From Streptomyces katrae (GTDB lineage: Bacteria; Actinomycetota; Actinomycetes; Streptomycetales; Streptomycetaceae), in NCBI RefSeq assembly GCF_000717655.1, contig NZ_JNZY01000001.1:310001-374000 (forward strand): 64,000 nucleotides of DNA, given 5' to 3'. Position 1 is the stretch's first letter. The number at the start of each line of letters is the position of its first letter. Positions 4,777-37,015 of the stretch are shown here, piece after piece. The notes beneath the pieces were generated by a model. It searched no databases. It worked only from the letters and a program-made list of their open reading frames with translations, and had not been told where the DNA came from. The position numbers were made by a program, and so were the translations under genes.

Positions 4777-4789
4777 CCCGGGTACGGGA

Positions 4790-4816
4790 AAGGGCACCGC
4801 GGCCGGCGGTGCCCTT
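4790..4816. terminator. bidirectional transcription terminator
   Basis: A perfect 11-bp stem (AAGGGCACCGC paired with GCGGTGCCCTT) with a five-base loop sits between the convergent hypothetical and mrp genes. It could stop transcription from both sides. Confidence 0.75.
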
Positions 4817-4834
4817 CACGTCGTACGGTGCGGG

Positions 4835-5995: not shown

Positions 5996-6001
5996 GCCCC
6001 G

Positions 6002-6007
6002 ATGGTA
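6002..6007 (-). promoter_or_regulatory. predicted leaderless -10 box for mrp
   Basis: TACCAT on the minus strand ends six bases before the mrp ATG, which puts the predicted transcription start on the start codon. No convincing -35 is visible. Confidence 0.55.
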
Positions 6008-6037
6008 CGGCTCGGTAGCCTGCCTCAGGAAAGGCCG

Positions 6038-7994: not shown

Positions 7995-8210
7995 GCGAGC
8001 GCCTCCTAGAGCGTCGATCCTCAGTCCTGCCGCCCCTCAGGCTAGCCCGTGCCGCGGGAGACCGTCCTGGTGGGGCGGTCCGCCCGTGCGCAGCCTGGGG
8101 AGGCGGGCCGGCCGGGCGTGCCCGGGTAGGCCGACCACCCGCCCGGCACGGTCGCTACGGGCGGGTACGCTGCCTGCTGCTCGAAGACGCACGACGAGAG
8201 GCACCTGCCC

Positions 8211-8999: not shown

Positions 9000-9036
9000 C
9001 CGAGCGCCCGGAAGGCCCCAAGAAATAGGACCGTCC

Positions 9037-9549: not shown

Positions 9550-9556
9550 GCGCACC

Positions 9557-9562
9557 AGAGTA
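9557..9562 (-). promoter_or_regulatory. predicted leaderless -10 box
   Basis: TACTCT on the minus strand ends seven bases before ATG 9549 and supports that start. Confidence 0.45.
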
Positions 9563-9604
9563 GGGGGTGCCCCCGGAGCCGACGGCGAAGCCTCAAGGCA
9601 CCCT

Positions 9605-10720
9605 CTAAAGCCAGCCGTGGCGGCGCAGGGCGCGGTGGATGGTGAAGCAGATGCCGACGATCGTCGCCATCACCATCGGATAGCCGTAGCGCCACTGGAG
9701 CTCCGGCATGTGCTCGAAGTTCATCCCGTAGACCCCGCAGATCATCGTCGGGACGGCGATGATCGCCGCCCAGGAGGTGATCTTGCGCATGTCCTCGTTC
9801 TGGGCGACCGTCGCCTGGGCCAGGTTGGCCTGGAGGATCGAGTTCAGCAGCTCGTCGAAGCCGACGACCTGCTCGTGCACCCGCGCCAGGTGGTCGGCGA
9901 CGTCGCGGAAGTACTTCTGGATGGCCGGGTCCACCAGCCGCATCGGGCGCTCGCTCAGCAGCTCCATCGGCCGCAGCAGCGGGGCGACGGCCCGCTTGAA
10001 CTCCAGTACCTCGCGCTTGAGCTGGTAGATGCGACCCGCGTCGCCGCCGCGCGCACCGCCCTTTGCGGGTGCGGCGAAGACCGCGCTCTCCACCTCGTCG
10101 ATGTCGTCCTGGACGGCCGCCGCGACCGCGATGTACCCGTCGACGACGTGGTCGGCGATGGAGTGCAGGACCGAGGAAGGGCCCACGGCCAGCAGCCCGG
10201 GGTCGTCCTGGAGCCGGTGGCGCAGCCCCTTGAGGGAGCCCTGGCCGCCGTGCCGGACCGTGATGACGAAGTCCGGGCCGGTGAAGCACATCACCTCGCC
10301 GGTCTCCACCACCTCGCTGGTGGCGGTCAGTTCGGCGTGCTCCACGTAGTGGATGGTCTTGAAGACGGTGAAGAGCGTGTCGTCGTAGCGCTCCAGCTTC
10401 GGCCGCTGGTGCGCGTGCACCGCGTCCTCCACGGCGAGCGGGTGCAGCCCGAACGTGGCGGCGATCCCCGCGAACTCCGCCTCGGTCGGCTCGTGCAGGC
10501 CGATCCACGCGAAGCCACCGCCCTCGCGCACCCGGGCCATGGCCTCACGCGGCGTCAGACGGGCCGATCCCAGGGCGCGTCGGCCGTCGCGGTACACGGC
10601 GCAGTCGACGACCGCACTGCTCGCGGACGGGTCGCGGGTGGTGTCGTAGCCGGGCTGGGCCGGGGTGGACCTGCGCAGGGCCGGACGTACGGCGGCACGC
10701 AGGTAGGGCAGCATCGACAT
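9605..10720 (-). CDS. corA: CorA-family magnesium/cobalt transporter
   Basis: A 371-aa CorA channel for Mg2+ or Co2+ uptake. The large N-terminal cytoplasmic domain (residues 1-300) includes the HPLAVEDAVHAHQRPKLERY segment typical of CorA. Two C-terminal membrane helices follow, with the signature YGMNF closing the first one (about residue 335), and a short basic tail ends the protein. ATG at 10720 follows GGAGCC at good spacing; the frame stays open far upstream, but that part has no CorA similarity. The 377-base gap upstream gives a long predicted 5' leader of about 300 nt if the GATAAT-like box near 11032 is used. It forms a cation-homeostasis neighbourhood with the MgtE-N/CBS protein. 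Confidence 0.93.
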   Translation of the reverse strand: MSMLPYLRAAVRPALRRSTPAQPGYDTTRDPSASSAVVDCAVYRDGRRALGSARLTPREAMARVREGGGFAWIGLHEPTEAEFAGIAATFGLHPLAVEDAVHAHQRPKLERYDDTLFTVFKTIHYVEHAELTATSEVVETGEVMCFTGPDFVITVRHGGQGSLKGLRHRLQDDPGLLAVGPSSVLHSIADHVVDGYIAVAAAVQDDIDEVESAVFAAPAKGGARGGDAGRIYQLKREVLEFKRAVAPLLRPMELLSERPMRLVDPAIQKYFRDVADHLARVHEQVVGFDELLNSILQANLAQATVAQNEDMRKITSWAAIIAVPTMICGVYGMNFEHMPELQWRYGYPMVMATIVGICFTIHRALRRHGWL

Positions 10721-11097
10721 GGCAGGCTCCTTCGCACGCACGGCTGCGGACCGTACGGGTGGGAGGCCTTCCGCCGCCGCCGGCGGGCAGGGCCGGGCAG
10801 ACGGAAGGAACAGGACGGGAGGACAAAGTTCTGCCGTCGCTCTTCGACTGATCAGATGATCAAACGGGCTGGAACGTGCCCGTACCGGGAGTGGAAGAGC
10901 GGTTGGTACTGCACGATCGACTTCGATCCATTGCAGCCCCACCTCCTCCGGCCGGTCCCCCGTGGAGGACGTCCTGTCGTCGGACGCCCCGAAACAACTC
11001 CTCAGGAGTGTGGCCCCGACCAGCGGTCAACATTATCAGCCGACGGATGGTCAAGACCCGCCCTTTACCCGCCTCATACGAGTTCTATGCTCGCTTC
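10721..11097. other. 377-bp divergent intergenic region (corA leader)
   Basis: No gene is supported here. The minus strand carries an AT-rich GATAAT (11032-11037), the only candidate corA -10 I can see, which would give a leader of about 300 nt. I looked for an M-box (ykoK) magnesium riboswitch and could not recognise one. On the plus strand a -10 box abuts the next gene. Confidence 0.5.
11086..11091 (+). promoter_or_regulatory. predicted leaderless -10 box
   Basis: TATGCT is followed by six bases and then the ATG at 11098. A possible -35 (TTTACC) lies about 16 bases upstream. No ribosome-binding site is present. Confidence 0.55.
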
Positions 11098-11682
11098 ATG
11101 GCAGAAATTCTGGCTCTCGTCGAAGCCCGGCTCCGCAGCGCACTCGGCGAACCCGACGCCCGCGCCGCCGTCACCTTCCTCGGCACCGACCGCATCGAAG
11201 TACTCCGCTTCGCCGAGGGCGACCTCGTGCGGTACGCGACCCTCGGCATGTCCGCGCACCCGATGGCCGACCCGACCGCCGTGGTCGCCGACCCGCTGCG
11301 CGGACCGCGCGCCGAGCTCGTGCTGACCGTACGGGCGGGCCTGGCGCCCACCGACAAGCTGCTGCGGCCCCTGGCGGTGCTGGGCGCCTCGCCGCAGGTG
11401 GAGGGGCTGGTCGTGGCCCCCGGCGCCTCGCTCGACGTCGGCGGCCCGCTGTGGGACGGGGCGCCCTTCACCTCCGTACTCGTCGCGGAGCCGGGCGGAC
11501 TGGTCGAAGACCTGGAACTCGACGCGCCCATGGACCCGGTGCACTTCCTCCCCCTCCTGCCGATGACGGCGAACGAGGCCGCGTGGAAGCGCGTGCACGG
11601 CGCGGCGGCGCTGCAGGAACGCTGGCTGTCGCACGGCACGGATCTGCGGGATCCTCTTCGTACCGCCGTGGCGCTGGACTGA
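11098..11682 (+). CDS. suppressor-of-fused (SUFU) domain protein
   Basis: A 194-aa cytoplasmic protein resembling the bacterial SUFU-domain family. Supporting segments are the central ADPLRGPRAELVLTVRAGL, the VAPGASLDVGGPLWDGAPFT stretch, and the C-terminal VHFLPLLPMTANEAAWKRVH, which matches the conserved 'lLPlt..E' region of SUFU domains. No signal peptide, membrane span or enzyme motif is seen. Bacterial SUFU proteins have no settled function, although many sit in stress or immunity neighbourhoods. The ATG is directly behind a TATGCT box with no Shine-Dalgarno, so translation is probably leaderless. It is divergent from corA. Confidence 0.75.
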   Translation: MAEILALVEARLRSALGEPDARAAVTFLGTDRIEVLRFAEGDLVRYATLGMSAHPMADPTAVVADPLRGPRAELVLTVRAGLAPTDKLLRPLAVLGASPQVEGLVVAPGASLDVGGPLWDGAPFTSVLVAEPGGLVEDLELDAPMDPVHFLPLLPMTANEAAWKRVHGAAALQERWLSHGTDLRDPLRTAVALD

Positions 11683-20810: not shown

Positions 20811-21797
20811 ATGTCTTCGACCGAGCTGCCGGGTGTGCGATCCACATCCGAGCCGTCCCCCCAGGTGGGAGCCGTCCACGTCGCCGAGGGGGAGCAGCTG
20901 CGCACCGCCGTGCTGCCCGGACTGGAGCTCGCCGTCCGGTCGCGGCCCCCGCGGCGCACGGATCTGCCCCCCGCGCTGTTCGTACACGGACTCGGCGGTT
21001 CGTCGACGAACTGGTCGGACCTCATGCTGCAGTTGGCGGACACCGTCGACGGCGAGGCCCTCGACCTGCCCGGTTTCGGCTGGTCCCCGCCGCCCGCCGA
21101 CCGGGACTACTCGGTCACGGCGCTGGCCCGCGCGGTCATCCGGCACCTCGACGCCGCCGGCCGGGGCCCCGTGCACCTCTTCGGCAACTCCCTCGGCGGC
21201 GCCGTCTCCACCCGGGTCGCGGCCGTCCGCCCCGACCTGGTGCGCACGCTCACGCTGGTCTCGCCCGCGCTGCCCGAGCTGCGGGTGCAGAGGTCGGCCG
21301 TGCCGACCGCGCTGCTCGCCGTTCCCGGGATGGCTTCCCTGTTCGGCCGGCTGACCCGCGGGCTGACGGCCGAGGAACGCACCCGGGGGGTGACCGTCCT
21401 CTGTTACGGGGACCCCTCACGGGTGACGCCGGAGGGCTTCGGGCACGCCGTCGCGGAGATGGAGCGGCGGATGGCCCTGCCGTACTTCTGGGACGCGATG
21501 ACCCGGTCCTCGCGCGGCATCGTCGACGCCTACACCCTCGGCGGGCAGCACGGGCTGTGGCGCCAGGCACAGCGGGTACTCGCGCCGACCCTGCTGGTCT
21601 ACGGTGGCCGGGACCAGCTGGTCTCGTACCGTATGGCGCAGAAGGCGGCGGCGTCCTTCCGGGGTTCACGGCTGCTGACCCTGCCCGAGGCCGGCCACGT
21701 GGCGATGATGGAATACCCAGAGGTCGTGGCGAACGCCTTCCGGGAGCTGCTGCACGACACCGACCGGGATACCGAAACCGAAGACGGCAGAGGCTGA
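20811..21797 (+). CDS. alpha/beta-hydrolase fold protein
   Basis: A 328-aa hydrolase. It has the oxyanion motif FVHGLGGSSTNWSDL (about residue 62), the nucleophile elbow FGNSLGGAVS (Ser near 127), the acid in VYGGRDQLVS (Asp near 272) and the catalytic His in EAGHVAMMEYP (near 300). The N-terminal 40 residues are extra relative to the minimal fold and look disordered. It resembles the LipV/MhpC-like group, but no substrate is evident. It begins at an ATG behind a TAACAT box, so it is likely leaderless. The stop is five bases before the DUF3152 start, so the two genes form an operon. Confidence 0.85.
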   Translation: MSSTELPGVRSTSEPSPQVGAVHVAEGEQLRTAVLPGLELAVRSRPPRRTDLPPALFVHGLGGSSTNWSDLMLQLADTVDGEALDLPGFGWSPPPADRDYSVTALARAVIRHLDAAGRGPVHLFGNSLGGAVSTRVAAVRPDLVRTLTLVSPALPELRVQRSAVPTALLAVPGMASLFGRLTRGLTAEERTRGVTVLCYGDPSRVTPEGFGHAVAEMERRMALPYFWDAMTRSSRGIVDAYTLGGQHGLWRQAQRVLAPTLLVYGGRDQLVSYRMAQKAAASFRGSRLLTLPEAGHVAMMEYPEVVANAFRELLHDTDRDTETEDGRG

Positions 21798-21802
21798 GGA
21801 CC

Positions 21803-23284
21803 GTGGGACGACATAGTCGCAAGGGGCCCGCTCCGGCCCCCGCCCCTGTCCGCCCGGCACCGGTGGCGGAACCCGCAGCGGATTTCCCGTCCGGGGAGCA
21901 CGTGGCGTACGGGGAGCAGCCGCCGTACACCGAGTACCCGCCGTATAGGGAGCAGCACCCTCCGTACGAGGAGCGCCTTCCGCACCAGGAGCACACTCCG
22001 TACCAGGGGTACGGGTACCCGCCACACCAGGGGCACCAGGAGGCCCCGGGACACCAGGAGGCCCTCCCGCACGAGGAGCAGTTCCCGTACGAGGAACCGC
22101 GCGGCGGCCACCCCGAGCAGCGCGAGCCCGGCGGCGCCTGGGGCGTGGGGCCCGACGCGGTCTACGGGGACTGGCACGGCGTACCGCGGGCGCGCCGTTC
22201 GGCCGCCGCCGTCATGGACAGCGACACGCCGGCCTTCGGCACCCCCGCGGTCGGCTTCCCGCAGGTGACCCTCCCGCAGCCCCCGGCCGACCCCTTCACC
22301 TCCACCGGCACGCACGGCCTGGTGCCGGGACCCCGTGCGCCGATGACCGCGGCTGCTGCGGCGCCGCCGGTGGCGCCTGCAGAGCCCCTGGCTCCGGCCG
22401 CGCCCGCCGCCCCCGCCGAACCCGGCGAGGAGCAGACCGGGACCGGTCGCGGGCGAAAGGTGCGTGCGTACACCGGAATGGCCGCCGCGGCCGTCACCAC
22501 CGTGCTCGCCGTCGTCGTCGCCGTGCAGATGGCCACCGACGGCGACAGCGGCTCCTCGCCCACCGCCCGGGCCGCCGGCGACAACCCGAAGCGCGCCGAG
22601 CCCGGCCGGTCCCCGGCCTCCCGCTCCGACGGCAGGGCGACCCCGGCCGCACCCGCCGCGTCGGCCGCACCCGCCGTGGAGCTCTCGTACGAGCAGAAGA
22701 TGGCCCAGCAGCTGCCCATCGACGAGAAGCTGAAGGGACCCGGGACCTTCGACACCGTCCCCGGTGTGGCTCCGGCGCCCGGCAAGGGCAAGAAGATCCG
22801 CTACCGGGTCGACGTCGAGCAGGGGCTCGGCCTGGACGCGCAGCTGTTCGCCGAGGCCGTCCACCGCACCCTCAACGACGACCGCAGCTGGGGCCACGGC
22901 GGGACGAAGACCTTCGAGCGGGTGCCCGGCGGCGAGGCCGACTTCGTCATCACGCTGGCCAGCCCCGGCACCACCGGCGTGTGGTGCGAGAAGTCCGGTC
23001 TGGACACCACCGTCGACAACGTCAGCTGTGACTCCGCTTCCACCGAGCGGGTCATGATCAACGCGTTCCGCTGGGCGCAGGGCTCGCCGACGTACGGCGC
23101 GGACCAGATGTTCGCGTACCGGCAGATGCTCATCAACCACGAGGTCGGACACCGGCTCGGGCACGGGCACGTGAACTGTCAGACTCCGGGCTCGCTCGCG
23201 CCGATCATGCAGCAGCAGACCAAGTCGCTGGACATCGGCGGCATCCAGTGCAAGCCCAACCCCTGGGTGTTCCCCGGCAATTGA
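21803..23284 (+). CDS. DUF3152 putative zinc metalloprotease, membrane-anchored
   Basis: A 493-aa protein. The N-terminal 220 residues are a low-complexity Pro/Tyr/Glu/His cytoplasmic region (repeats like PPYTEYPPYREQHPPYEE). One membrane helix follows (MAAAAVTTVLAVVVAVQMA, about residues 228-246), then a linker and an extracellular DUF3152 domain over about residues 290-493. That domain contains INHEVGHRLGHGHVNC, an HExxHxxGHxH arrangement like the metzincin zinc site. Four cysteines (WCEK, SCDS, HVNC, IQCK) suggest two disulfides. The GTG start is five bases after the hydrolase stop, with TGAGGA overlapping that stop, so translation is coupled. It corresponds to Rv3207c. Proteolysis is inferred from the motif only. 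Confidence 0.82.
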   Translation: MGRHSRKGPAPAPAPVRPAPVAEPAADFPSGEHVAYGEQPPYTEYPPYREQHPPYEERLPHQEHTPYQGYGYPPHQGHQEAPGHQEALPHEEQFPYEEPRGGHPEQREPGGAWGVGPDAVYGDWHGVPRARRSAAAVMDSDTPAFGTPAVGFPQVTLPQPPADPFTSTGTHGLVPGPRAPMTAAAAAPPVAPAEPLAPAAPAAPAEPGEEQTGTGRGRKVRAYTGMAAAAVTTVLAVVVAVQMATDGDSGSSPTARAAGDNPKRAEPGRSPASRSDGRATPAAPAASAAPAVELSYEQKMAQQLPIDEKLKGPGTFDTVPGVAPAPGKGKKIRYRVDVEQGLGLDAQLFAEAVHRTLNDDRSWGHGGTKTFERVPGGEADFVITLASPGTTGVWCEKSGLDTTVDNVSCDSASTERVMINAFRWAQGSPTYGADQMFAYRQMLINHEVGHRLGHGHVNCQTPGSLAPIMQQQTKSLDIGGIQCKPNPWVFPGN

Positions 23285-23548
23285 CCACCGGGGGCGGCGA
23301 GCTGCCGCCGTGTCGGGCCCGGCCCGTCCGCTCCGCGCCGAGCGGGAGAGCCGTGAGGGGCGCGAGAGGTACGAGGGCCGCAGGCCCTTTGTAGCGCGCT
23401 CGAACGCGGGCCGCAGGCGAAAGTTACGACTCTTCACCCCTTCCGGTGGCGCGACGGACAACCGTCCGTCGCGTCATCGGCATATCCGCTTGAGTTTCCC
23501 GCGGCGGGTCACCGGACAGACGGCGACCGCCTGGACGGGAGATCGGGG

Positions 23549-25306
23549 GTGCCACTCGTGCGGATCGGACTGCTCACGGAAGGTGGTTATCCGTATGCGA
23601 CGGGAGAGGCGAGGCTGTGGTGCGACCGGCTGGTCCGCGGGCTGCCGCAGCACGAGTTCGAGCTCTACGCACTGAGCCGCAGCGCCGAGCAGGAGGAGCG
23701 CGGCCGGGTCGTCCTCCCCGAGCACGTCACCCGCGTCTGGACCGCCCCGCTCTGGGCCCCGGCGGACGACGGCCGCACGTACTCCCGGCGTGAGCGCCGG
23801 CGTTTCGCCGAGTGCTTCAAGGACCTGGTCCGCGGGATCTGCGCGGGCGAGCCCGAGCGCTTCGCCGCCGGCCTGTACGGGCTCGCCGAACTCGCCCGGG
23901 AACAGGGCGGGTTGTACGCGGCCCTGCGCTCCGAGACCGCGGTCCGGACGGTGGAGTCGGCCTGCCGGGCCCCCGGCGCGCTGCGCTCCGTCCAGCGCGC
24001 CCAGGTGGCCGACCTGCTGGACTTCGTCGACGAACTGGAGCGGCTGCTGCGGCCGTTGTCCCTCGACTGGTACGAGGACCTGCGCGAGGTCGACGTCTGC
24101 CACGCGGCCGCGGGCGGGGTGGCCGCGCTCCCCGGCCTGCTGGCCAAACGCTTCTTCGGGGTCCCGCTGCTGGTCACCGAGTACGGGGTCCAGCTGCGGG
24201 CCCACTACCTGGAGCACTCGGCGGACGCTTCCCCCGGGCAGGGAGGCCCCGGGGGCACGGGAGCGGGCCGAGGCGCCCCCCGGCCCGCCGTCCGGGCCCT
24301 GCTCGCGGCCTTCCACATGCGGCTGGCGGCCGAGATCTACGCCCGGGCCGACCTCCTGACCCCCGGCAACGCGCACGCCCGGCGCTGGCAGGAGCGCTGC
24401 GGCGCCACACGGGACCGGCTGCAGACGGTGTACCCGGGGATGGAGGCGGACCGATTCGCCGCCGTCGGCGAGGACCCGGACTGCGGGGACCCGGACACCC
24501 TGGTCTGGGTCGGCCGGATGGAGCCCGCCAAGGACCTGATCGCGCTGCTGCACGCCTTCGCCGAAGTGCGCAGGGCCGCCCCGGACACCCGGCTGCGGAT
24601 CTTCGCGACCGCCGTGGTCCCCGGCTACCTCGCCGACTGCCGCTCGCTCGCCGCGCAGCTCTTCCCCGACGAGGCCGCCGACGCCGTCACGGCCGGGGAG
24701 AACCCCGTCACCTTCGAGGAGATCGGCGGGCCCGAGGCCCCCTCGCCGGCCGACGCCTACGGCTGCGGGCGGGTGGTCGTGCTGTCCTCGGTGATCGAGG
24801 GCTTCCCGATCAACCTCGCCGAAGCGATGCTCTGCGGCCGGGCCACCGTGTCCACCGACGTCGGCGGCGTGTGCGAGGTCATCGGCGGCACCGGCCTCGT
24901 CGTCCCGCCGCGCAATCCGCGGGCGCTGGCCGACGCCTGCCTGTCGCTGCTGAGGGACCCCGAGCGGGCCCAACGGCTCGGCGCGGCCGCCCGGGCCCGG
25001 GCCCTGGAGCTGTTCACCGTCGAGCAGAACGTGGCCGCCTTCAAGGAGATCTACCTGCGGCTGCTGGCCCGCGGACCGGCACGGCCCGACGGCGGGATCC
25101 CCTTCGAGCAGCCCCCCGAGGCCCGGGTCCCGGGCCACTGGACGAGCCCCACCTGGGCCGCTGCGGCCGCGGCTGCGGACCGGGCACCGGCGGCCCCGGC
25201 CGGCGCGCCGGGCGCGGGTCCGGGCGCGGGCGAGGCTCCGGGCGGCGCCGGCCCGGCTCAGGCCCGGACCCCGGCCACCACCACGACCACGGAGGCGACG
25301 GTATGA
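23549..25306 (+). CDS. PelF-like glycosyltransferase (DUF3492 + GT4)
   Basis: A 585-aa cytoplasmic glycosyltransferase. The N-terminus RIGLLTEGGYPYATGEARLW matches the DUF3492 domain of PelF, the enzyme that polymerises the GalNAc-rich Pel polysaccharide from UDP-sugars. The GT4 donor-binding domain is C-terminal, with VWVGRMEPAKDLIALLHAF (about residue 318) and SSVIEGFPINLAEAMLCGR (about 415). The E-x7-E type motif is in EGFPINLAE. The last 75 residues are a Pro/Ala/Gly/Thr-rich tail absent from typical PelF. A Gly-rich insert lies near residue 230. GTG 23549 or GTG 23558 could be the start; both have G-rich leaders. The ATGA overlap with the next gene shows tight coupling. Substrate choice is inferred from the family. 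Confidence 0.8.
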   Translation: MPLVRIGLLTEGGYPYATGEARLWCDRLVRGLPQHEFELYALSRSAEQEERGRVVLPEHVTRVWTAPLWAPADDGRTYSRRERRRFAECFKDLVRGICAGEPERFAAGLYGLAELAREQGGLYAALRSETAVRTVESACRAPGALRSVQRAQVADLLDFVDELERLLRPLSLDWYEDLREVDVCHAAAGGVAALPGLLAKRFFGVPLLVTEYGVQLRAHYLEHSADASPGQGGPGGTGAGRGAPRPAVRALLAAFHMRLAAEIYARADLLTPGNAHARRWQERCGATRDRLQTVYPGMEADRFAAVGEDPDCGDPDTLVWVGRMEPAKDLIALLHAFAEVRRAAPDTRLRIFATAVVPGYLADCRSLAAQLFPDEAADAVTAGENPVTFEEIGGPEAPSPADAYGCGRVVVLSSVIEGFPINLAEAMLCGRATVSTDVGGVCEVIGGTGLVVPPRNPRALADACLSLLRDPERAQRLGAAARARALELFTVEQNVAAFKEIYLRLLARGPARPDGGIPFEQPPEARVPGHWTSPTWAAAAAAADRAPAAPAGAPGAGPGAGEAPGGAGPAQARTPATTTTTEATV

Positions 25307-26199
25307 CCCTGGACGAAGCCGCCCCCGTCGCCCCGGCCCCCCGCCGCAGGGCCGGCGGGGATCCCGTCAAGACACTGCTGCACCGGCACCGGGCGCTCTG
25401 CGAGCGGGCCGTGGACCCGCTGGAGATCGCCGCCGGGCTGGAGGTGCAGGGCATCACCGACCGCACCGCCGCGCGCTTCCGGCACCGGGACGTGTTCTCG
25501 CTGGCCGAGGAGCTCTACGCCCGCACCCCGCGCGGGGACGAGCCGGCCGCGCCCCGTGCCGTCCGCCCGTCCGACGCCCGGGCGTTACGCGGCTTCGGGT
25601 ACGCCCTGCTCCCCGGGGCCCTCGCGCTCGGGGCGGCTGCCGCCGGGGTTCCGTACGCCGGGCCCGTCGCCGTACTCGCCACCGTCGCCGCCCTGGTGTG
25701 GCCCCGGCGGACGGGGCGGGCCGCCGCGGGGCGGTTCCCGTACGCCGCGCTGCTGCTCGCCGCGGCCGTCGTCGGCTGGGCGGTGCACCGCCACGGGACG
25801 CCCCTCGGAGTCGGACTCGCACTGGCCGCGGCCCCCGGCCACCTGGTCGGCGCCGCGTACGCCGCCCGCGCCCGGAGCCGGCTCGCCGCCAGCCGCGCCC
25901 TGGAGGACTTCGCCGACCGGGCCCGGCCGCTGCTGGTCGCGACCGCCCTGGCCTTCGCCGCGACCGCCGCGGGGGCGGCCGCGCTCGCCGGGACCCCGCC
26001 GGGCGTGGCCGTACCGCTCGCCGTACTGCTCTTCCTGACCCGGCTGCTGCTCGTGCACGGCGCCCCGCGCGGGCCCGTCGCCGCAGCCCTGGCCCTCGCC
26101 CTGGTCCCGACCCCGCCGGCGGTGACCGCCGCCGCCGCGGGGCTCCTCGTACACGCCGTCCTCGTGCTGTCCCGCGCGTCCGCGCACGCCCGGTCCTGA
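25303..26199 (+). CDS. polytopic membrane protein with a TTA codon
   Basis: A 298-aa protein with an N-terminal cytoplasmic segment of about 95 residues (including DPLEIAAGLEVQGITDRTAA) and about eight hydrophobic helices (for example YAALLLAAAVVGWAVH, PLLVATALAFAATAAGAAAL, GVAVPLAVLLFLTRLLLV). I recognise no family; by context it may be the export or assembly component of the polysaccharide cluster, a role PelG fills elsewhere. ATG overlaps the glycosyltransferase stop (ATGA). Codon 95 is TTA (25585-25587), a very rare leucine codon in Streptomyces that needs the bldA tRNA, so production may be limited to late development. I saw no other in-frame TTA in this cluster, though my scan was by eye. 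Confidence 0.75.
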   Translation: MTLDEAAPVAPAPRRRAGGDPVKTLLHRHRALCERAVDPLEIAAGLEVQGITDRTAARFRHRDVFSLAEELYARTPRGDEPAAPRAVRPSDARALRGFGYALLPGALALGAAAAGVPYAGPVAVLATVAALVWPRRTGRAAAGRFPYAALLLAAAVVGWAVHRHGTPLGVGLALAAAPGHLVGAAYAARARSRLAASRALEDFADRARPLLVATALAFAATAAGAAALAGTPPGVAVPLAVLLFLTRLLLVHGAPRGPVAAALALALVPTPPAVTAAAAGLLVHAVLVLSRASAHARS

Positions 26200-26288
26200 G
26201 CCGGAGCGTCCCCTTACCGCCGCCGCTTTCCGGAGCCGTACCCACCCCTACCCCCGACCCCCCTGCCCATCGACCAAGGAGACACAGG

Positions 26289-26327
26289 ATGACCGGCCAG
26301 CCAACCAACCGAGGGACCGCGCGATGA
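26289..26327 (+). CDS. 12-codon leader ORF before the epimerase gene
   Basis: A short ORF encodes MTGQPTNRGTAR. It has the best Shine-Dalgarno of the region (AAGGAGA, seven bases upstream), and its stop overlaps the epimerase ATG as ATGA. The arrangement suggests that translation of the leader delivers ribosomes to the epimerase start, or that leader translation regulates it. The peptide contains no run of a single regulated amino acid, so classical attenuation is unlikely. An alternative is that the ATG here is a fossil start. Confidence 0.6.
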   Translation: MTGQPTNRGTAR

Positions 26328-27379
26328 GGGTGCTGCTGATCGGAGCCAACGGATACCTCGGTCGCTACGTCGCCGACCGGCTGCTCGCCGACCCCGCCGT
26401 CCAGCTCACCGCCCTCGGCCGCGGCGACGACGCGGACGTCCGCTTCGACCTCGCCACCGGCAGCCCCGGCGCCCTCACCCGGTTCCTCGACGCCGTCCAT
26501 CCGGGCGTCGTCATCAACTGCGCCGGCGCCACCCGCGGCGGGGCCCGGGAGCTGACCCGGCACAACACCGTCGCCGTGGCCACCATCTGTGAATCCCTGC
26601 GCCGCAGCGGCTGCGGGGCCCGCCTCGTCCAGCTCGGCTGCGCTGCCGAGTACGGTCCCAGCCAGCCCGGATCGTCCACGGCCGAGGACGCCGTGCCGAG
26701 ACCGGGCGGACCGTACGGCGTGAGCAAGCTCGCCGCCACCGAGCTGGTGCTCGGCTCGGGGCTGGACGCGGTCGTCCTGCGGATCTTCTCGCCCGTCGGA
26801 CCCGGCACACCCGCCGGATCCCCGCTCGGCCGGCTCGCCGAGGCCATGCGGCGCGCGATGCAGAACGGGGACGGCGAGCTCAAGCTCAGCGGGCTCGGGG
26901 TCCAGCGCGACTTCGTGGACGTACGGGACGTGGCGCGGGCCGTGCACGCCGCCTCGCTCTCCGCCGCCCAGGGCGTCGTCAACATCGGCACCGGGCGCGC
27001 GGTCCGGTTGCGCGACGCGGCGGCGGTACTGGCCCGGGTCGCCGGGTACGGAGGCGCCCTGCACGAGCTCGACGTACCGCAGCACGGGCAGGGACACGGC
27101 CACGGACCCGGTCACGGCGCCGGGCACGGCGTCGGCCACGGGCTCGGGCCCCAGGGCCGCTCGCCCGGGCTCGCCGCCATCGGCGCCCCGCGCTCCGAGG
27201 CGACGGCCGAACAGCTCGCCGCCGGCGGCGCGGCGCCGGCGTACCCGTACCCCGACGGCTGCGGCGCCTGGCAGCAGGCCGACGTGCGCACGGCCCGGGA
27301 CCGGCTCGGCTGGCGGCCCCGGATCAACCTGGAGGAGTCCCTCGCGGACATCTGGATGGAGGCGGCGTGCCGCATCTGA
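26324..27379 (+). CDS. NAD-dependent nucleotide-sugar epimerase/dehydratase
   Basis: A 351-aa extended SDR enzyme. The Rossmann motif LLIGANGYLGRYVADRL is at residues 4-20. The catalytic Tyr-x3-Lys is in GGPYGVSKLAATEL (about residue 132), and the conserved RDFVDVRDVARAVH segment is near 200. These suit a UDP-sugar 4-epimerase or related enzyme, which could supply GalNAc-type precursors to the neighbouring glycosyltransferase. A His-Gly tract (QHGQGHGHGPGHGAGHGVGH, about residues 252-271) interrupts the C-terminal domain and is not part of the family fold. ATG 26324 overlaps the stop of a 12-codon leader ORF. The end overlaps the spherulin-like gene by 13 bases. Confidence 0.85.
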   Translation: MRVLLIGANGYLGRYVADRLLADPAVQLTALGRGDDADVRFDLATGSPGALTRFLDAVHPGVVINCAGATRGGARELTRHNTVAVATICESLRRSGCGARLVQLGCAAEYGPSQPGSSTAEDAVPRPGGPYGVSKLAATELVLGSGLDAVVLRIFSPVGPGTPAGSPLGRLAEAMRRAMQNGDGELKLSGLGVQRDFVDVRDVARAVHAASLSAAQGVVNIGTGRAVRLRDAAAVLARVAGYGGALHELDVPQHGQGHGHGPGHGAGHGVGHGLGPQGRSPGLAAIGAPRSEATAEQLAAGGAAPAYPYPDGCGAWQQADVRTARDRLGWRPRINLEESLADIWMEAACRI

Positions 27380-28116
27380 CGACGGCAGCCACGGCGGCCG
27401 CCGCGACCGGGGCGGGCCGCCTCGGCCTCGGCGCCCCCGGCTACGCCCACCCGCTGCTCGCCCCGGTCGAATGGGCCGAGCTGACCCGGCCCGGGACCCC
27501 GCTGCACTGGACGGTGCTCAATGTCACGGACGGGCCGGGCGGCCGGCCCGACCCGCACTGCACGGAGGCTGCCGCCAAGCTCCGGGAGGCCGGCGGCACC
27601 GTGCTCGGTCATCTCGCGATGCGAGACGGGACGCGGTCGTTCGGCGAGCTCGTCTCCGACGCCCACCGCTTCCTCGACTGGTACCGGGTGGGCGGCTTCT
27701 ACCTGGCCGACGCCCCGGCGGACGAGGCCGAACTGGCCGAGGTGCGCCGGGTCGCCGACACCCTGCGCGGGCTCGGCGACGGCCTCCGTATCGTGCTGGG
27801 ACACGGCACGCACCCGCACCAGGGCTATGCGGAGGCGGCCGACCAGCTGGTCACCTTCTCCGGGGCCTGGGCGGACTACCGCTGGTCGCAGGTGGCGGAG
27901 TGGACCGCCGAGTACCCGCCCGAGCGCTTCTGCCACCTGGTCCACGGGGTGCCGCGGACGCACCTGGAGGAGGCCGTCCGGATCGCCCGCTGGCAGGGCG
28001 CCGGCACGGTCTGGTTCACGGACCGGGGAGGCGCCGCCGGGCGCGATCCGTGGGCCTCGATGCCCGCGTACTGGGACGAAATCGTCTCGCGGATCGGGAC
28101 GGGTGTCTCGGAATGA
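27367..28116 (+). CDS. spherulation-specific family 4 (GH135-like) protein
   Basis: A 249-aa protein of the spherulin-4 family (PF12138). Supporting segments are LHWTVLNVTDGPGGRPDPHC, the GTVLGHLAMRDGTRSFGELV strand-loop-helix, VGGFYLADAPADEAELAEV and FCHLVHGVPRTHLEEAV. The fungal member Sph3 (GH135) cleaves galactosaminogalactan, which fits a cluster making an amino-sugar polymer. The acidic catalytic position, usually FFDE in the family, reads LADA here, so activity is uncertain. No signal peptide is visible, so it may act inside the cell. GTG 27367 lies within the end of the epimerase gene, so the two are coupled. Confidence 0.78.
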   Translation: MPHLTTAATAAAATGAGRLGLGAPGYAHPLLAPVEWAELTRPGTPLHWTVLNVTDGPGGRPDPHCTEAAAKLREAGGTVLGHLAMRDGTRSFGELVSDAHRFLDWYRVGGFYLADAPADEAELAEVRRVADTLRGLGDGLRIVLGHGTHPHQGYAEAADQLVTFSGAWADYRWSQVAEWTAEYPPERFCHLVHGVPRTHLEEAVRIARWQGAGTVWFTDRGGAAGRDPWASMPAYWDEIVSRIGTGVSE

Positions 28117-28156
28117 AAAGGGGCGTGGCAGTGTTACGCGACAGAACAACCTACAA

Positions 28157-28184
28157 ATGCTCCCCGCGCCCGCGGGGATGACCC
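28157..28184 (+). repeat. solitary type I-E CRISPR-repeat-like hairpin
   Basis: A 28-base stretch beginning ATGCTCCCCGCG and ending GCGGGGATGACCC matches the form of type I-E CRISPR repeats of actinobacteria: a CCCCGCG-CC-CGCGGGG palindrome followed by ATGACCC. Only one copy exists here and no cas genes are in the window, so it is not an array. It lies in the moeZ leader, with the GGAG ribosome site starting one base after it. Confidence 0.45.
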
Positions 28185-28194
28185 TGGAGTCCCC

Positions 28195-29373
28195 GTGTCG
28201 CTGCCACCCCTGGTCGAGCCAGCTGCTGAGCTCACCGTTGACGAGGTCCGCCGGTACTCGCGTCACCTGATCATCCCCGACGTCGGGATGGACGGCCAGA
28301 AGCGCCTGAAGAACGCCAAGGTGCTGGCCGTGGGTGCGGGCGGACTCGGCTCCCCCGCCCTCATGTACCTGGCCGCGGCCGGTGTGGGCACGCTGGGCAT
28401 CGTGGAGTTCGACGAGGTCGACGAGTCGAACCTGCAGCGCCAGATCATCCACAGCCAGTCGGACATCGGCCGCTCCAAGGCCGAGTCCGCCCGTGACAGC
28501 GTGCTGGGCATCAACCCGTACGTGAACGTGGTCCTTCACGAAGAGCGGCTCGAGGCCGAGAACGTGATGGAGATCTTCAGCCAGTACGACCTCATCGTCG
28601 ACGGCACGGACAACTTCGCCACGCGCTACCTCGTCAACGACGCGTGCGTACTGCTGAACAAGCCGTACGTGTGGGGCTCGATCTACCGCTTCGACGGCCA
28701 GGCCTCGGTCTTCTGGTCCGAGCACGGGCCGTGCTACCGCTGCCTGTACCCGGAGCCCCCGCCGCCGGGCATGGTCCCGAGCTGCGCCGAGGGCGGCGTG
28801 CTGGGCGTGCTCTGCGCCTCCATCGGGTCCATCCAGGTGACGGAGGCCATCAAGGTCCTCACCGGCGTCGGCGAGCCGCTGGTCGGCCGCCTGATGATCT
28901 ACGACGCCCTGGAGATGCAGTACCGCCAGGTCAAGGTCCGCAAGGACCCCGACTGCGCGGTGTGCGGCCCGAACGCGACGGTCACCGAGCTCATCGACTA
29001 CGAGGCCTTCTGCGGCGTCGTGTCGGAGGAGGCGCAGGAGGCGGCGCTCGGCTCCACGATCACTCCGAAGCAGCTCAAGGAGTGGATCGACAACGACGAG
29101 CCGATCGAGATCATCGACGTCCGCGAGATCAACGAGTACGAGATCGTGTCGATCCCCGGCGCGAAGCTGATCCCCAAGGGCGAGTTCCTGATGGGCACCG
29201 CCCTCCAGGACCTCCCGCAGGACAAGCGCATCGTCTTGCACTGCAAGACGGGTGTCCGCAGTGCGGAAGTCCTCGCGGTCCTGAAGTCGGCGGGCTTCGC
29301 GGACGCGGTCCACGTCGGCGGCGGCGTGATCGGCTGGGTCCACCAGATCGAGCCCGAGAAGCCGGTCTACTAG
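28195..29373 (+). CDS. moeZ: adenylyltransferase/sulfurtransferase MoeZ
   Basis: A 392-aa two-domain enzyme that adenylates and then sulfurates ubiquitin-like sulfur carriers (MoaD, ThiS, CysO) for molybdopterin, thiamine and thioamide products. The E1-like ThiF domain spans residues 1-250, with the nucleotide loop GAGGLGSPALMYLAAAGVG (about 45-63) and R-rich LQRQIIHSQSDIG. Its structural zinc pairs are CYRCLYP and CAVCGP. A rhodanese domain (residues 290-390) carries the sulfur-accepting Cys350 in LHCKTGVRS. Length and domain order match actinobacterial MoeZ (Rv3206c). The start is GTG 28195, with GGAG six bases upstream. The CRISPR-repeat-like hairpin in its leader might affect mRNA structure. 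A 14-bp terminator follows. Confidence 0.95.
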   Translation: MSLPPLVEPAAELTVDEVRRYSRHLIIPDVGMDGQKRLKNAKVLAVGAGGLGSPALMYLAAAGVGTLGIVEFDEVDESNLQRQIIHSQSDIGRSKAESARDSVLGINPYVNVVLHEERLEAENVMEIFSQYDLIVDGTDNFATRYLVNDACVLLNKPYVWGSIYRFDGQASVFWSEHGPCYRCLYPEPPPPGMVPSCAEGGVLGVLCASIGSIQVTEAIKVLTGVGEPLVGRLMIYDALEMQYRQVKVRKDPDCAVCGPNATVTELIDYEAFCGVVSEEAQEAALGSTITPKQLKEWIDNDEPIEIIDVREINEYEIVSIPGAKLIPKGEFLMGTALQDLPQDKRIVLHCKTGVRSAEVLAVLKSAGFADAVHVGGGVIGWVHQIEPEKPVY

Positions 29374-31775: not shown

Positions 31776-33735
31776 TCACCTCCACTGCGTGTTCCTACGT
31801 AGCTGCCGCAGCGCGTTCAGGTCGGCCGGGCCTTCCAATCGTATGACTCGCTCGGGGTTCTGCGAGCGCAGAGCCCGCTCGTAGTCTCCTCGGGGTACTG
31901 GATCCAGACTCAGGGTCGGGTCGTAGACGTATCGACCGTCGGTGTATACCTGGTGGAATTCATATTCGACATTTCTGATTCCGTTGGCTTCGGCCTCAGG
32001 TGTCCTGAGTGTCCCGGAGGGGGTGATGTAGTGGACGACCTTTCCTTCGCCCCCTGCCTGCCTCATGATGAATTCAGATATTTCGGTGCAATCGACGTAT
32101 TCGCCCCTGGGGGCTGCTCGCATGGCGTCGATCAAATTCTGTTTCGGCGGGTGGGCGGGGTTCGGCTCTCTGAAGTCAAAGGGGTCGCGCTCAGGGCACC
32201 CATCTGGTGCAAGACCGTGGGCGTCCGACCAGGTGTGGGGGTTGTGGACGTACGTGGCCGGATTCGGGGCCGGGGTGAGGCCCAGGGGGTCCGGGGAGAG
32301 GTAGCGGGCCGTTTCGGGGTCGTACGTGCGGAAGTAGTTGTGGTGGAGACCGGACTCCGGGTCGTAGTACTGGCCCGGGAAGCGGAGCGGGGTGTACGCC
32401 GTCGCGTCGCGGTTCCAGGTTGTGGTGCCCCACAGGGTGCTGCGGGTGCGCCACGCCGTCGTGCCGTCTTCGGCGAGGAGCTGGGTCGGGGTGCCGATCA
32501 GATCGGTGACGATCGCGAAGAAGCGGTCGTCCACCTCCGCCTCGTCGAGGCGTTCCGTTTGGGTGAGGGGGTGCAGGCCTTGGTGGGTCCAGGTGAGGGT
32601 GACACCGCCGGCGGTCTGCTCGCAGAGGGTCGTGCCGTCCCAGGTGAAGAGCGTTTCCTCGACGACCGTGCCCGTATCCGAGAGGCGCTGTTTGGCCGTG
32701 CGGCGGCCCAGGGGGTCGTACGTGTACCGCCACCGCGTGCCGTCCGGGGTGGTGACCGCCGTGAGCCGGTCTTCCGCGTTCCATTCGTAGCGCCACGTGT
32801 CCGGCTTGCGGGACAGGCGGGTCTTCTGCCGGAGCACCACGCGGCCCAGCGCGTCGTGTTCGTAGCGGATCGAGCCCGCGCGGGTGATGCGGGTGCCCGT
32901 GTACGTGCGCTCGCCCTGGGCCTCCGCGCCCGGGTGGCGGGTCGGCCAGGAAGCGTGCGTCTGGTTTCCGGCCTCGTCGTATGCGTACCGTTCCGACCAG
33001 GACGTCGCCTCCACCGCCGTGACGCGGGCGGCGGAGTCGAGGGTGAACGTGCGGGGGCCGGTGAGGGAGTCGTCGATGCCGGTGAGGTAGCCGTCGGCCC
33101 GGTAGCTGTAGCCGCGGCGCTGGAGGGTCCGTCCGTCCTGGCCGACGACCGACTGCGCGGCCCGGCGGCCCATGTCGTCGTACTCGTGGGTGAGGGAGAG
33201 CGACGGGTTCAGCGTGCGGGTCAGTTCCTGCCCCGCTGCGTCCCGGTCGAAGCTCAACGTGCGACCCGCCGTGGTCAGCGTCGAGCGCCTGCCCACCGCG
33301 TCGTACGTCCACGAGGACTCCGACCCCGTGGGGGTGATGCGGCTCGTGCGGCGGCCCAGGGCGTCGTACCCGTACGTGAGGGTGCGGCCGTCGACCGTCT
33401 CCGCGAGCAGCCGGGCTGCCTCGTCGCGCAGCCAGGTGACCGTTGCGTCCGGGGACACCGCACTCGAGAGGGCGTCGAAGACGTCGCACGCGTACGTCGT
33501 GACCAGACCGGCCGGTGGTGTGGCCGAGCGGGTCCGTGCGGGAGAGCAGGCGGTTGTACGCGTCGTGGGTGAAGTGGGTGGTCGCGCCCGTGGGGCCGAT
33601 CTCCGCGGTGATCTGCGCGAGGTCGTTGACCAGGAACTGGGTCCGGTGGCCCAGGGAGTCGATCAGGGTGGTGCGGCCCGGCTCGTACGTGAAGCGGACG
33701 TCGAGGTGGCCGTTGGTGCCGGACTGGGCGACGCA
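31776..33735 (-). pseudogene. truncated, frameshifted Rhs/YD-repeat protein with C-terminal toxin domain
   Basis: YD repeats (YDALGRRTSR, YDDMGRRAAQ, YTYDPLGRRTAK) and the Rhs core end (RYLSPDPLGLTPAPNPATYV) are clear. Full-length Rhs proteins have 1,500 or more residues; only about 650 remain here. Repeat homology starts near 33720 (GHLDVRFTYEPGRTTLIDSL) in one frame, then shifts frame at 33508-33515, where CCGG is duplicated in tandem. Removing four bases restores PLGHTTGLVTTYACDVF. The intact 560-codon remainder from GTG 33458 ends in about 143 residues that look like a papain-fold toxin: Cys in YVDCTEISEF, His in YEFHQVYTDG and Asp in YVYDPTLS. The remnant may be silent, or the C-terminus may be kept as a reservoir. 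Confidence 0.8.
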
Positions 33736-34022: not shown

Positions 34023-36848
34023 CTAGATGGCTTCCTTGCGGGTCAGGTAGTTGAACGAGATCCAGCCCGGCAGCACCGGCAGCCAGAACGTCATCAGGCG
34101 GAACAGCAGCACCGCCGAGATGGCGACCTCCTTGTCCAGCCCGGCGGCGATCAGGCCCAGCGTCAGGGTCGTCTCCACCGCGCCGATACCGCCCGGCGTC
34201 GGCGCCGCCGAGCCCAGGGCGTTGCCCGCCAGGAAGACCACCGCGATGCTCGCGTAGCTGAGGGCCTGGCCGCCTCCGAACGCCCGGATCGACGCGTCCA
34301 GGCACATCACGAAGCAGCCGGTCAGCAGCAGCATGCCGCCGATGCCCGTCATGAGCTTCTGCGGCCGCTGGAGCACGTCCAGCATGCGCGGCACGACACC
34401 CGCGAACAGCGCCCGTACCCGCGTCGCCACGAACTTCCGCAGGAACGGGACCGCCGTCACCACCAGCACCAGCACCGCCACCGTGAGCAGACCCGCGATG
34501 ACCGTCCGGGACGGGGTCATCTCCGGGGTCTTCTCGGTGCCCGTCAGGTATCCGAAGGCCAGCAGCAGCAGGATGTGGCTCGCCAGCCCGAACAGCTGCG
34601 AGGCTCCCACGCTCGCCACCGCCAGACCCGGCCGGATCCCCGCCCGCTGCAGGAACCGCGTGTTCAGCGCGACACCGCCGACCGCCGCCGGCGCCACCAG
34701 CTTCACGAAGGACCCCGCCACCTGCGCGACCACCGTCCGCAGGAACGAGACCCGCTCCGGCACGAAGCCCAGCAGGCTCATCGCCGCCGCGAAGTACGTC
34801 AGCGCCGAGAAGGCCAGCGCGGCCCCCACCCAGCCCCACTCCGCCTCGCCGACGATCGTCGCGAAGTCCACGTGCGCCAGCTGCGTGAGCAGGAAGTACG
34901 CACCGAACGCGCCCGCGATGAACGACACCAGCGTGCGCGGCCGGATCCGCTCCAGGCGGGCCGGCTCCACCGGCGCCTGCGGGCGGATCAGCAGCACCTG
35001 CTGGCGGATCTGGCTCAGCAGGTCCTCCTCGCGGGCCCCGTCGAGCGCGTCGTCCAGCGCCTTCTTCTCGGCCTTCTTCTCCGCGGCCGTGACCGCCGCC
35101 GACTTGGCCCCGGGCTTCCCCGCCTTGCCCGCCTTCCGGTCCGGCTTCGCCTCCTCCGCAGCCGCCTCGCGCGCCGACTTCGCCGCCCGCGAGGACTCCA
35201 GTACGGCCTCCCGCTGCCGGTCGGCCCGCTCGCGGGCCAGCCTGCGCAGCGTCGCCCGGGTGGAGCGGCTCAGTGCGATCGGCTGGAGCAGCGGCAGGCA
35301 GTCCGCCACCGCGTCCGGGCCGAGCACCGACACCGCCGAGGCCACCGCGCGCTCCGCGCCGATCCGCAGGCCGAGCGTGGTCAGCAGCTGCGCGATGTCC
35401 ATCCGGAGCACCAGGTCGCCGGCCGCGATCTCGCCGCCGCGCAGGTCGGTGAGGACGACATTGCCGGAACGATCCACCACGAGCGCGTCGCCGGTGAGCC
35501 GCCGGTGCGCGATCCGCCGCGACTGGAGCGCCCGTACCTGCTTCCACGTGCTGCGGGTCAGGTCGTCGGTGATCTCCTCGTCGGCGAGCGCGTCGAGGGG
35601 CCGGCCGTCCAGGTGCTCGTACACGAGCATGACGGCGTCCGGGCCCAGTTCGGAGGTGGCGATCAGCTTCGGCGCGTTGGCCCCGGCCGCGATGGCCGCG
35701 TACGCGAGGAGCGCCTCCTGTTCCAGTGCCTGGCGCAGCGACTGGAGGCTGCGCCGGGTCGTGATGCCGCGCAGGGTGAGCCGGCGCCAGACCCGGTAGA
35801 AGAACCCGTGCGCCTGCTGCTCGCGGTCGACGACGGTGACGTCGAGCGGCGGGCCGTCCTCCAGAGTGACGTGGTACCGGCGGCCCCGGTCGCTCACCTC
35901 CGAGGCGTCGGCGCCGTCCGGGAGCTCCGCGCGCATGGCGCTGACCGGCTTGAAGCCGACCCGGCGCAGGCCGGCGAGGAGGGTCTGCCCGGTGGGGCGG
36001 ACGTTCGGCGAGCCGACGGCGTACAGGGTCCCGTACGCGACGCTCCAGCCGATCAGCACGGTCAGGATGATCGAGAACGGAGTGGTGTACCCGCTGACCA
36101 GCATCGCGAAGGCGTCCAGCAGCAGCACCACCCACAGCGCGACCCGCCAGCGCGGCCTGCGGGTCATGCCGACGGCGGTCATGTACGCGATGACGGGCGC
36201 GAGGTAGCCGTGCACCGGGTCGGTGAGGGGGCCGCCGAAGCTGGTGGGACGGGTGAGGGCTTCCTGGATGGTGTCGGAGGCGGCCTGGGAGACCCACAGG
36301 TCGGTGGCCAGGGTGACGCCGTGCGCGAGGACCGCGGCGAGCACGCCGTCGGCGATGCGCAGCCCGTCCCGCTTGATCAGCCGCTCGATGGCGAAGGCCA
36401 CGGGTACGAGCAGCACGGCGATGCTGGACACCAGCCCGGCGACCTTGATCAGCAGATCGGGTGCGGCACCGGTGCCCTGGGAGATGTCGGCTTCGAGGCC
36501 GGCGGTGGTGCGGTGGGCGAAGGCGGCGATGGCGAGGACGACGGCGATGCCGAGGACACCGACGAGCAGGCGTACGAGGTCGGAGGGGCGGTGGACGCGG
36601 GCGGCGAGCAGCGGCTCGTCGACCTCGACGTGGTCGGCGGACGCGGAGGCGCGCCCGTGCGGCCCGTCGGCGCCGGGCTCGTCCCCAGATCCGGCTCCGG
36701 CTCCGGCTCCGGTTCCGGTTCCGGCGTTGGCCCGGGCCCGGGGTCCGGGCGCGGTCCGGCCGGGTGGCTCGTCGGGGAGCTTCCCGGGCCCGGGGTGCGG
36801 GTCCGGGCGCGTGCCGTCGTCCTCAGCCGCGCCGTCCGGAGGGCTCAC
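34023..36848 (-). CDS. kinase-like/lysylphosphatidylglycerol-synthase-type flippase fusion membrane protein
   Basis: A 941-aa multi-domain membrane protein. After an acidic, Gly/Pro-rich tail come six or so helices (residues 80-260). A cytoplasmic kinase-like domain spans about 280-570 (ELGPDAVMLVYEHLDGRPLD, SRRIAHRRLTGDALVV, GNVVLTDLRGGEI). A basic Lys/Ala linker follows (EEAKPDRKAGKAGKPGAKSA), then the flippase-like TIGR00374/DUF2156-linked transmembrane domain at about 640-935, with APTPGGIGAVETTLTLGL as its signature. The likely role is lipid or glycan-lipid transfer under control of the kinase-like part; the HRRLTGDALVV and LTDLRGG lines resemble HxD and DFG. GTG 36848 is chosen for AAGGAG seven bases upstream. 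It is divergent from the alkyltransferase-like gene. Confidence 0.82.
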   Translation of the reverse strand: MSPPDGAAEDDGTRPDPHPGPGKLPDEPPGRTAPGPRARANAGTGTGAGAGAGSGDEPGADGPHGRASASADHVEVDEPLLAARVHRPSDLVRLLVGVLGIAVVLAIAAFAHRTTAGLEADISQGTGAAPDLLIKVAGLVSSIAVLLVPVAFAIERLIKRDGLRIADGVLAAVLAHGVTLATDLWVSQAASDTIQEALTRPTSFGGPLTDPVHGYLAPVIAYMTAVGMTRRPRWRVALWVVLLLDAFAMLVSGYTTPFSIILTVLIGWSVAYGTLYAVGSPNVRPTGQTLLAGLRRVGFKPVSAMRAELPDGADASEVSDRGRRYHVTLEDGPPLDVTVVDREQQAHGFFYRVWRRLTLRGITTRRSLQSLRQALEQEALLAYAAIAAGANAPKLIATSELGPDAVMLVYEHLDGRPLDALADEEITDDLTRSTWKQVRALQSRRIAHRRLTGDALVVDRSGNVVLTDLRGGEIAAGDLVLRMDIAQLLTTLGLRIGAERAVASAVSVLGPDAVADCLPLLQPIALSRSTRATLRRLARERADRQREAVLESSRAAKSAREAAAEEAKPDRKAGKAGKPGAKSAAVTAAEKKAEKKALDDALDGAREEDLLSQIRQQVLLIRPQAPVEPARLERIRPRTLVSFIAGAFGAYFLLTQLAHVDFATIVGEAEWGWVGAALAFSALTYFAAAMSLLGFVPERVSFLRTVVAQVAGSFVKLVAPAAVGGVALNTRFLQRAGIRPGLAVASVGASQLFGLASHILLLLAFGYLTGTEKTPEMTPSRTVIAGLLTVAVLVLVVTAVPFLRKFVATRVRALFAGVVPRMLDVLQRPQKLMTGIGGMLLLTGCFVMCLDASIRAFGGGQALSYASIAVVFLAGNALGSAAPTPGGIGAVETTLTLGLIAAGLDKEVAISAVLLFRLMTFWLPVLPGWISFNYLTRKEAI

Positions 36849-37015
36849 ACCCTGCTCCTTCGTCGTCACTTCCGTCTCTTCTTGATCGCGTATCACCAGT
36901 CACCGCCCGGAAGATGGTGGCACGGACCGACCGGCGGGCGGGTCATCAGGGTGCGCGCCGGTACGGAAGGAAACCTTCCGGGAACCGGTCCGTGATGTAC
37001 GGCACCATGGGCGCA

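Follow-up and report, generated by a model that had tools for sequence, protein, structure and literature searches.

A four-gene locus in a 64-kb stretch of the Streptomyces katrae genome (hereafter the window) is very probably, judging from sequence comparisons, a reduced streptomycete version of the actinobacterial galactosaminogalactan (GAG)/Pel-type exopolysaccharide operon in which the hydrolase has been disabled. Whether the product of the locus is still an N-acetylgalactosamine (GalNAc)-type surface glycan appears evenly balanced, and for the combined proposal of a reduced GAG/Pel-type operon that still makes such a glycan we see slightly better than an even chance. The locus comprises a PelF-like GT4 glycosyltransferase with a DUF3492 domain according to Pfam and NCBIfam (GT; 23549..25306), a multi-helix membrane protein with an alignment-defined conserved N-terminal domain at about residues 20-80 (MEM; 25303..26199), an extended, NAD-dependent epimerase/dehydratase-family protein with Cys replacing the usual catalytic Ser (SDR; 26324..27379) and a probably cytoplasmic spherulin-4/GH135-fold protein without catalytic residues (SPH; 27367..28116). 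All four are on the forward strand, and the block is bounded by a DUF3152 gene (21557-23284) and by moeZ (28195..29373, +; NCBIfam MoeZ 752.5 bits), an adenylyltransferase/sulfurtransferase gene that served as syntenic anchor outside the system. The open reading frame (ORF) coordinates agree with the original prediction of four genes joined by overlaps or short gaps: the overlap is 4 nt between GT and MEM and 13 nt between SDR and SPH, and 124 nt separate MEM from SDR. The MEM start at 25303 is a chosen ATG inside a longer ORF (23812-26199), and the GT start is ambiguous between two nearby GTGs. Genes and alignment rows resembling the window locus are termed window-type below.

The GT carries DUF3492 (E 3.5e-33) plus GT4 domains in Pfam and matches the NCBIfam PelF model (NF038011) over positions 2-489 of 489 at 101.6 bits, just passing the cut-off of 100, which upholds the predicted kinship with PelF. 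Both its EX7E and its G-R-x-E/D-P-x-K motif are retained in 81 of 81 rows. MEM has no Pfam match above cut-off, in keeping with its earlier description as unrecognised; the best 120 of its 3050 homologues (E <= 0.001, among 7994 scored) have no Pfam domains, and the named ones are called hypothetical, membrane or integral membrane proteins. The eight helices first attributed to it are plausible but soft, as an AlphaFold model places eight between residues 91 and 295 (mean pLDDT 65) whereas a simple hydropathy scan gives only four strong peaks. Assignment of a fold was given up, Foldseek having returned no PDB match at E <= 0.001 from this model. The window species and its near relatives also have a shorter MEM. 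A PelG (PF16933) search of the S. katrae genome was empty, as expected of a system predicted to lack a full PelG, and neither PelA nor any other Pel protein was seen among the scanned locus neighbours, where no search aimed at them was made.

SPH belongs to the spherulin-4 family as proposed (PF12138, E 6.3e-21) and shares the Sph3 fold. At the columns of the catalytic Asp (nucleophile) and Glu (acid/base), located by alignment to the Sph3 structure 5c5g, the window protein has A114 and S165. The Glu is absent in 76/76 rows and the Asp in 29/76; both residues are present in all 19 bacterial spherulin-4 rows outside the window type, a comparison in which 1 of 14 window-type rows has the Glu. 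None of 75 orthologues has a strongly hydrophobic stretch in its first 45 residues, as judged by hydropathy rather than by a signal-peptide predictor. The window SPH is thus probably catalytically inactive and cytoplasmic, and its predicted role in trimming a polymer is not borne out. We take the Sph3 numbering to be Asp166/Glu167/Glu222. In the 5c5g alignment the Asp of the FFDE motif lies 56 residues before Glu222, that is at position 166; the catalytic pair is printed as Asp196/Glu222 in PMC12054363. SPH has been gained or lost repeatedly, with at least six presence/absence changes on the GT tree, and 3'-end remnants of SPH precede moeZ in SPH-less loci (by eye; in L186 also by tblastn). 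A PF12138 search of the S. katrae genome missed the window SPH, though hmmscan detects it, and for this reason the A1 model was used to assess six-frame absence of the family. The genome holds a third spherulin-4 gene (L006; C12:15428-16159, -), which retains the active-site Asp and Glu.

The SDR matches PF01370 (E 8.5e-37), and its Tyr131, Lys135 and NAD-binding glycines are kept in 77/77 rows; Cys106 occupies the usual Ser position in the same 77. The window protein accordingly departs from the Ser/Thr-Tyr-Lys triad, in which Cys might still be workable. In the alignment for the SDR tree, Ser is found in 9/9 GAG-type rows and Cys in 21/23 window-type rows, a count that omits three rows of another SDR from these operons with Thr. 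The two Ser-bearing window-type SDRs are those of L172, where Phe replaces Tyr, and of L181, whose SPH retains the Glu. The best solved relatives of the window SDR include both GDP-6-deoxy-hexulose reductases and UDP-glucose 4-epimerases, and it scores 33.4 bits against a GalE model with a cut-off of 262.3. Of the initial annotation as an epimerase, membership of the extended SDRs therefore stands, whereas the C4-epimerase activity invoked for supply of UDP-GalNAc would be one possibility. A nucleotidyltransferase gene accompanies the SDR in L157 and L163, and a LegB-like dehydratase gene lies nearby in L173, so the SDR may be a reductase or epimerase acting on another nucleotide sugar. In the window species the protein (351 aa) has a His/Gly-rich stretch at about codons 251-290; 29 of 76 orthologues have 319 aa.

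The original prediction would have fallen had the genes not stayed together in related genomes. A scan of genome contigs confirmed 258 loci, of which the best 80 were used (79 titled Streptomyces and one 'Actinobacteria bacterium'); five of these end before moeZ (L007, L012, L031, L035 and L072). The order GT, SDR, SPH, moeZ holds in all 75 loci whose contig reaches moeZ, each with the 13-nt SDR/SPH overlap when the starts nearest to those of the window are picked, and 71 of them have a MEM match between GT and SDR, none having been found in L046, L061, L065 and L075. Two genome samples, one of the class (296 genomes) and one of the family (200 genomes), include 28 and 63 genomes, respectively, of the window's own genus (g1 in our collection, taken to be Streptomyces). 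DUF3492 occurs in 33 class-sample genomes, 28 of them own-genus, and a GT match in the score range of the window is present in 28/28 own-genus genomes, as read from scores. The window GT model matches 188 of the 200 family-sample genomes, paralogues included, and 63/63 of the own genus. Window-type SPH (E <= 1e-90) is present in 58 of these 63; the genomes without it are G153, G234, G277, G422 and G440, and the SPH-less loci L165, L166, L167, L186 and L187 still hold GT, a MEM match, SDR and moeZ. Mean column identity (21-25 rows each) is highest for SDR (79%), followed by SPH (68%), GT (58%) and MEM (38%). The ratio of nonsynonymous to synonymous substitution rates (dN/dS) spans 0.00-0.17 for SDR, 0.12-0.26 for GT and 0.15-0.35 for SPH over 10 pairs and 0.27-0.49 for MEM over 9, every computed pair of the four genes thus lying within 0.00-0.49.

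A second locus with DUF3492 and PF12138 is present in the same genome (L005, G000:C2:264000-283000, operon 4616-11455, +), encoding an Agd3-like protein (8.7e-05, below the Pfam cut-off), PelF (163.5 bits), a membrane protein, a spherulin-4 with the catalytic pair present (E 2.6e-30) and GH114 (E 5.9e-84). Its membrane protein is homologous to the window MEM (35%, E 2e-11), mainly in the N-terminal domain. The only Agd3-like and PF03537/GH114 matches in the genome, one of each, are on contig C2, outside the window. Genes for a histidine kinase and an LPG_synthase_C protein flank this second locus. Agd3-like matches (E <= 1e-10) occur in 13/28 own-genus genomes, exactly those with a second, high-scoring DUF3492 locus, and were not found in the other 15, all of which carry window-type GT.

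An intermediate arrangement was identified in another genus of the family (L173 in G309), where an agd3-like gene, a PelF-like GT, a MEM match, a 4,6-dehydratase (LegB-like, 450 bits against a cut-off of 475), an SDR, a spherulin-4 and GH114 are followed by a radical-SAM gene on the opposite strand and then the start of moeZ. Its SDR and spherulin-4 are 55% and 53% identical to those of the window. The GT tree unites L173 with 27 window-type rows (100/100) and separates the 27 from L173 (100/100) on a stem of 0.49; in the SPH tree, L173 joins 16 window-type rows (98/98) and falls outside them at 91/87. GT, SPH and SDR accordingly appear to descend from an agd3-type operon, with a long-branch warning on the SDR clade. 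As the sequences and trees demonstrate, with one full intermediate, the window lineage is without the two secreted enzymes, the agd3-like deacetylase and GH114, and retains GT, MEM and SDR; its spherulin-4 has lost the catalytic residues and the SDR Ser has mostly become Cys. Loss from a fuller operon, as indicated by L173 and the trees, explains the missing parts better than the originally minimal machinery first suggested. The idea of machinery for a GalNAc polymer keeps its footing in the Pel/GAG kinship of the PelF-like GT and of genes kept together, but not in its trimming component.

By gene order, and not by sequence, the locus is consistent with SCO5174 (GT), SCO5175 (MEM), SCO5176 (SDR) and SCO5177 (SPH) of S. 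coelicolor. SCO5178 is moeB (PMC4340878) and SCO5183/5184 are helicases (PMC6637917); in the window, the helicase genes and the four-gene block are on opposite sides of moeZ, and these positions rule out SCO5179-5182 as the counterpart. SCO5174, SCO5175 and SCO5177 are upregulated in the second mycelium (MII) by log2 2.2-3.8 (PMC3610822 Table 3), which puts them with the conserved genes of unknown function that show the strongest induction (PMC3610822), and SCO5174 mutants make less actinorhodin, SCO5174 being listed with cslA as actinorhodin up-modulators (PMC6585502).

Under the proposed reduced GAG/Pel-type operon, GT would polymerise or transfer an amino-sugar, probably of GalNAc type, at the inner face of the membrane. 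The conserved N-terminal domain of MEM may dock GT; MEM would anchor GT there and pass the glycan outward, while SDR would make or interconvert the nucleotide sugar. The glycan would undergo neither deacetylation nor trimming, and S. coelicolor would produce it in the second mycelium. The inactive spherulin-4 could be a dispensable intracellular protein with a glycan-binding or regulatory role. A bolder version, which we consider doubtful, would have Streptomyces convert a GalNAc-polymer system whose product was secreted and deacetylated into a pared-down developmental machine of GT, MEM and SDR for a core surface glycan of the second mycelium genus-wide; the former hydrolase would now act in the cytoplasm as a pseudo-glycosidase, sensing or guiding the nascent chain and exerting control over the synthase.

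Several observations weigh against the reduced-operon proposal. The full set beside moeZ is known from one genome only (G309), its agd3-like ORF gives 50% identity by tblastn but no Pfam match at E 0.001, and the radical-SAM gene separates its GH114 from moeZ. The SDR tree recovers the same group at 98 by a quick method, under the long-branch warning and with L173 unplaced. No agd3 match was found in the fetched stretches of L156 and L188, yet these keep the catalytic pair and GH114, so agd3 loss alone cannot explain SPH inactivation. Nor is the order of changes clean, since both the SPH Glu and the SDR Ser persist in W_L181, whereas W_L177, which lies outside it on a long branch of the GT tree, has Cys. 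L172 (G304) carries SDR, SPH and moeZ, yet the 12 kb fetched for it yielded no GT match. GH114 genes are present in 25/28 own-genus genomes, so that trimming in trans is possible. The PelF score of the window GT is marginal next to that of the second locus; the product, its sugar and its export are predicted from the genes; the S. coelicolor counterparts are mapped by order; and SCO5176 goes unmentioned in the main text of PMC3610822, the expression paper.

Other explanations account for part of these data. That the four genes both make and trim a GalNAc polymer, with SPH an active GH135 hydrolase, draws on the family membership of GT and SPH, the Sph3 fold and the co-location of SPH with GT, yet is very unlikely given a Glu missing from all 76 rows and an Asp from 29 of them, 75 orthologues without a strongly hydrophobic N-terminus, and the five of 63 own-genus genomes that lack window-type SPH and retain GT, a MEM match, SDR and moeZ. 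Slimmer still is the prospect that the whole locus is a decaying, functionless relic: loss of agd3, GH114 and SPH catalysis would suit decay, as would the six or more SPH presence/absence changes and the remnants before moeZ, but the GT match in 63/63 own-genus genomes, the low dN/dS and the SDR column identity of 79% speak against it, together with the published second-mycelium induction (PMC3610822) and SCO5174 mutant phenotype (PMC6585502).

A repurposed GT, glycosylating an envelope lipid, teichoic acid, protein or small molecule and making no polymer, is a possibility to be taken more seriously, if on the whole improbable. It would fit the long stem branch of 0.49, the marginal PelF score beside 163.5 bits at the second locus, the shorter MEM of the window species and near relatives, and the fact that no polymer-modifying enzyme is still active in the locus; against this, the active-site motifs are retained and the MEM partner shares its family with those of polymer operons. 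We also think it unlikely that the SDR is a sensor or scaffold instead of a sugar supplier, as the degenerate PelD SDR domain might be by analogy. Replacement of the catalytic Ser by Cys in 77/77 rows points in that direction and PelD epimerase domains have been called likely inactive (PMC7112168), but the SDR has its NAD glycines, Tyr and Lys intact in every row, unlike the altered cofactor sites of PelD.

Ahead of GT, a conserved non-coding block contains an inverted repeat (23450..23473, strand not assigned) whose 10-nt arms enclose AACC; the repeat may serve the operon as an operator or an RNA hairpin. Its 20-nt core pattern recurs in 71/80 loci, 97-110 nt ahead of the GT match, and at one place in the 8.58-Mb genome (<= 3 mismatches), matched once per strand. 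The arms covary in 5 loci, and 41/80 loci have one or two more broken pairs than the best 39. No Rfam RNA or riboswitch was found in 23200-28300, where one weak match inside genes reached 22.5 bits against a gathering threshold of 39. At the other end, a promoter-like site, GGAAT-N18-GTT (28110..28135, +), spans the SPH stop codon upstream of moeZ and presumably agrees with the SigR consensus. GGAAT-N17-19-GTT is found within 150 nt upstream of moeZ in 75/75 loci; each of the nine SPH-less loci examined has it too, whereas L172 does not. Within the window it occurs once on the forward strand (28110) and three times on the reverse, and 3 of 1277 control stretches have such a site, which is the 28110 site itself. 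The invariant SPH C-terminus ('VSE' and stop) had been considered a sign of SPH function; it overlaps this site and survives SPH loss, and is therefore better explained by the moeZ promoter. The TTA codon noted in the MEM gene (codon 95; 25585..25587, +) is present but not conserved, any TTA occurring in only 8/73 orthologues, and bldA control through it was dropped as a general feature. Further along the window, an RHS/YD-repeat protein (31776-33458, -) is encoded in a stretch of lower GC (0.63-0.72) beside an LPG_synthase_TM protein (34023-36896).

The reduced-operon proposal offers a candidate function for four adjacent genes widespread in the sampled genus, three of whose counterparts by gene order are strongly induced in the S. 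coelicolor MII and are listed there merely as transferase or hypothetical. It would also provide a natural experiment in GAG/Pel biology, in which what stays necessary can be seen once the deacetylase and hydrolases have been dropped.

We recognised no paper describing this locus as a GAG/Pel derivative, in a literature search that was weak on subscription journals. Closest to home, we take matAB to be a Streptomyces surface glycan locus, and we assume the synthases of cslA/glxA and matAB to be unrelated in family to the window GT. Like the window locus as read here, cslA/glxA (PMC6585502) and matAB are envelope glycan genes tied to development. The Gram-positive pelDEA(DA)FG operons (Whitfield et al. 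2020, PMC7112168) likewise place a PelF-like GT beside a membrane protein, with epimerase genes or domains nearby, among them the epimerase domains at the N-terminus of PelD (those called likely inactive above), which occur in streptococci, clostridia and actinobacteria; they differ in PelG, which was not found in the S. katrae genome. The fungal GAG cluster consists of a synthase, a UDP-glucose 4-epimerase, a deacetylase, Sph3 and GH114, of which the window locus is without the deacetylase and GH114. Fungal Sph3 is a membrane-bound, active hydrolase required for GAG synthesis (PMC12054363, PMC11356417), whereas the window SPH is probably cytoplasmic and inactive. Actinobacterial agd3 operons encode a cytoplasmic GT and a multi-spanning membrane protein, joined in some actinobacteria by a spherulin-4 (Bamford et al. 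2020, PMC7229062). The second S. katrae locus answers to this description; the window locus shares the GT, the multi-spanning MEM and the spherulin-4, but is without agd3 and GH114, and its spherulin-4 is without catalytic residues. Reading the window locus as a reduced GAG/Pel-type operon predicts that its glycan is neutral (acetylated), unlike the cationic product of the known systems.

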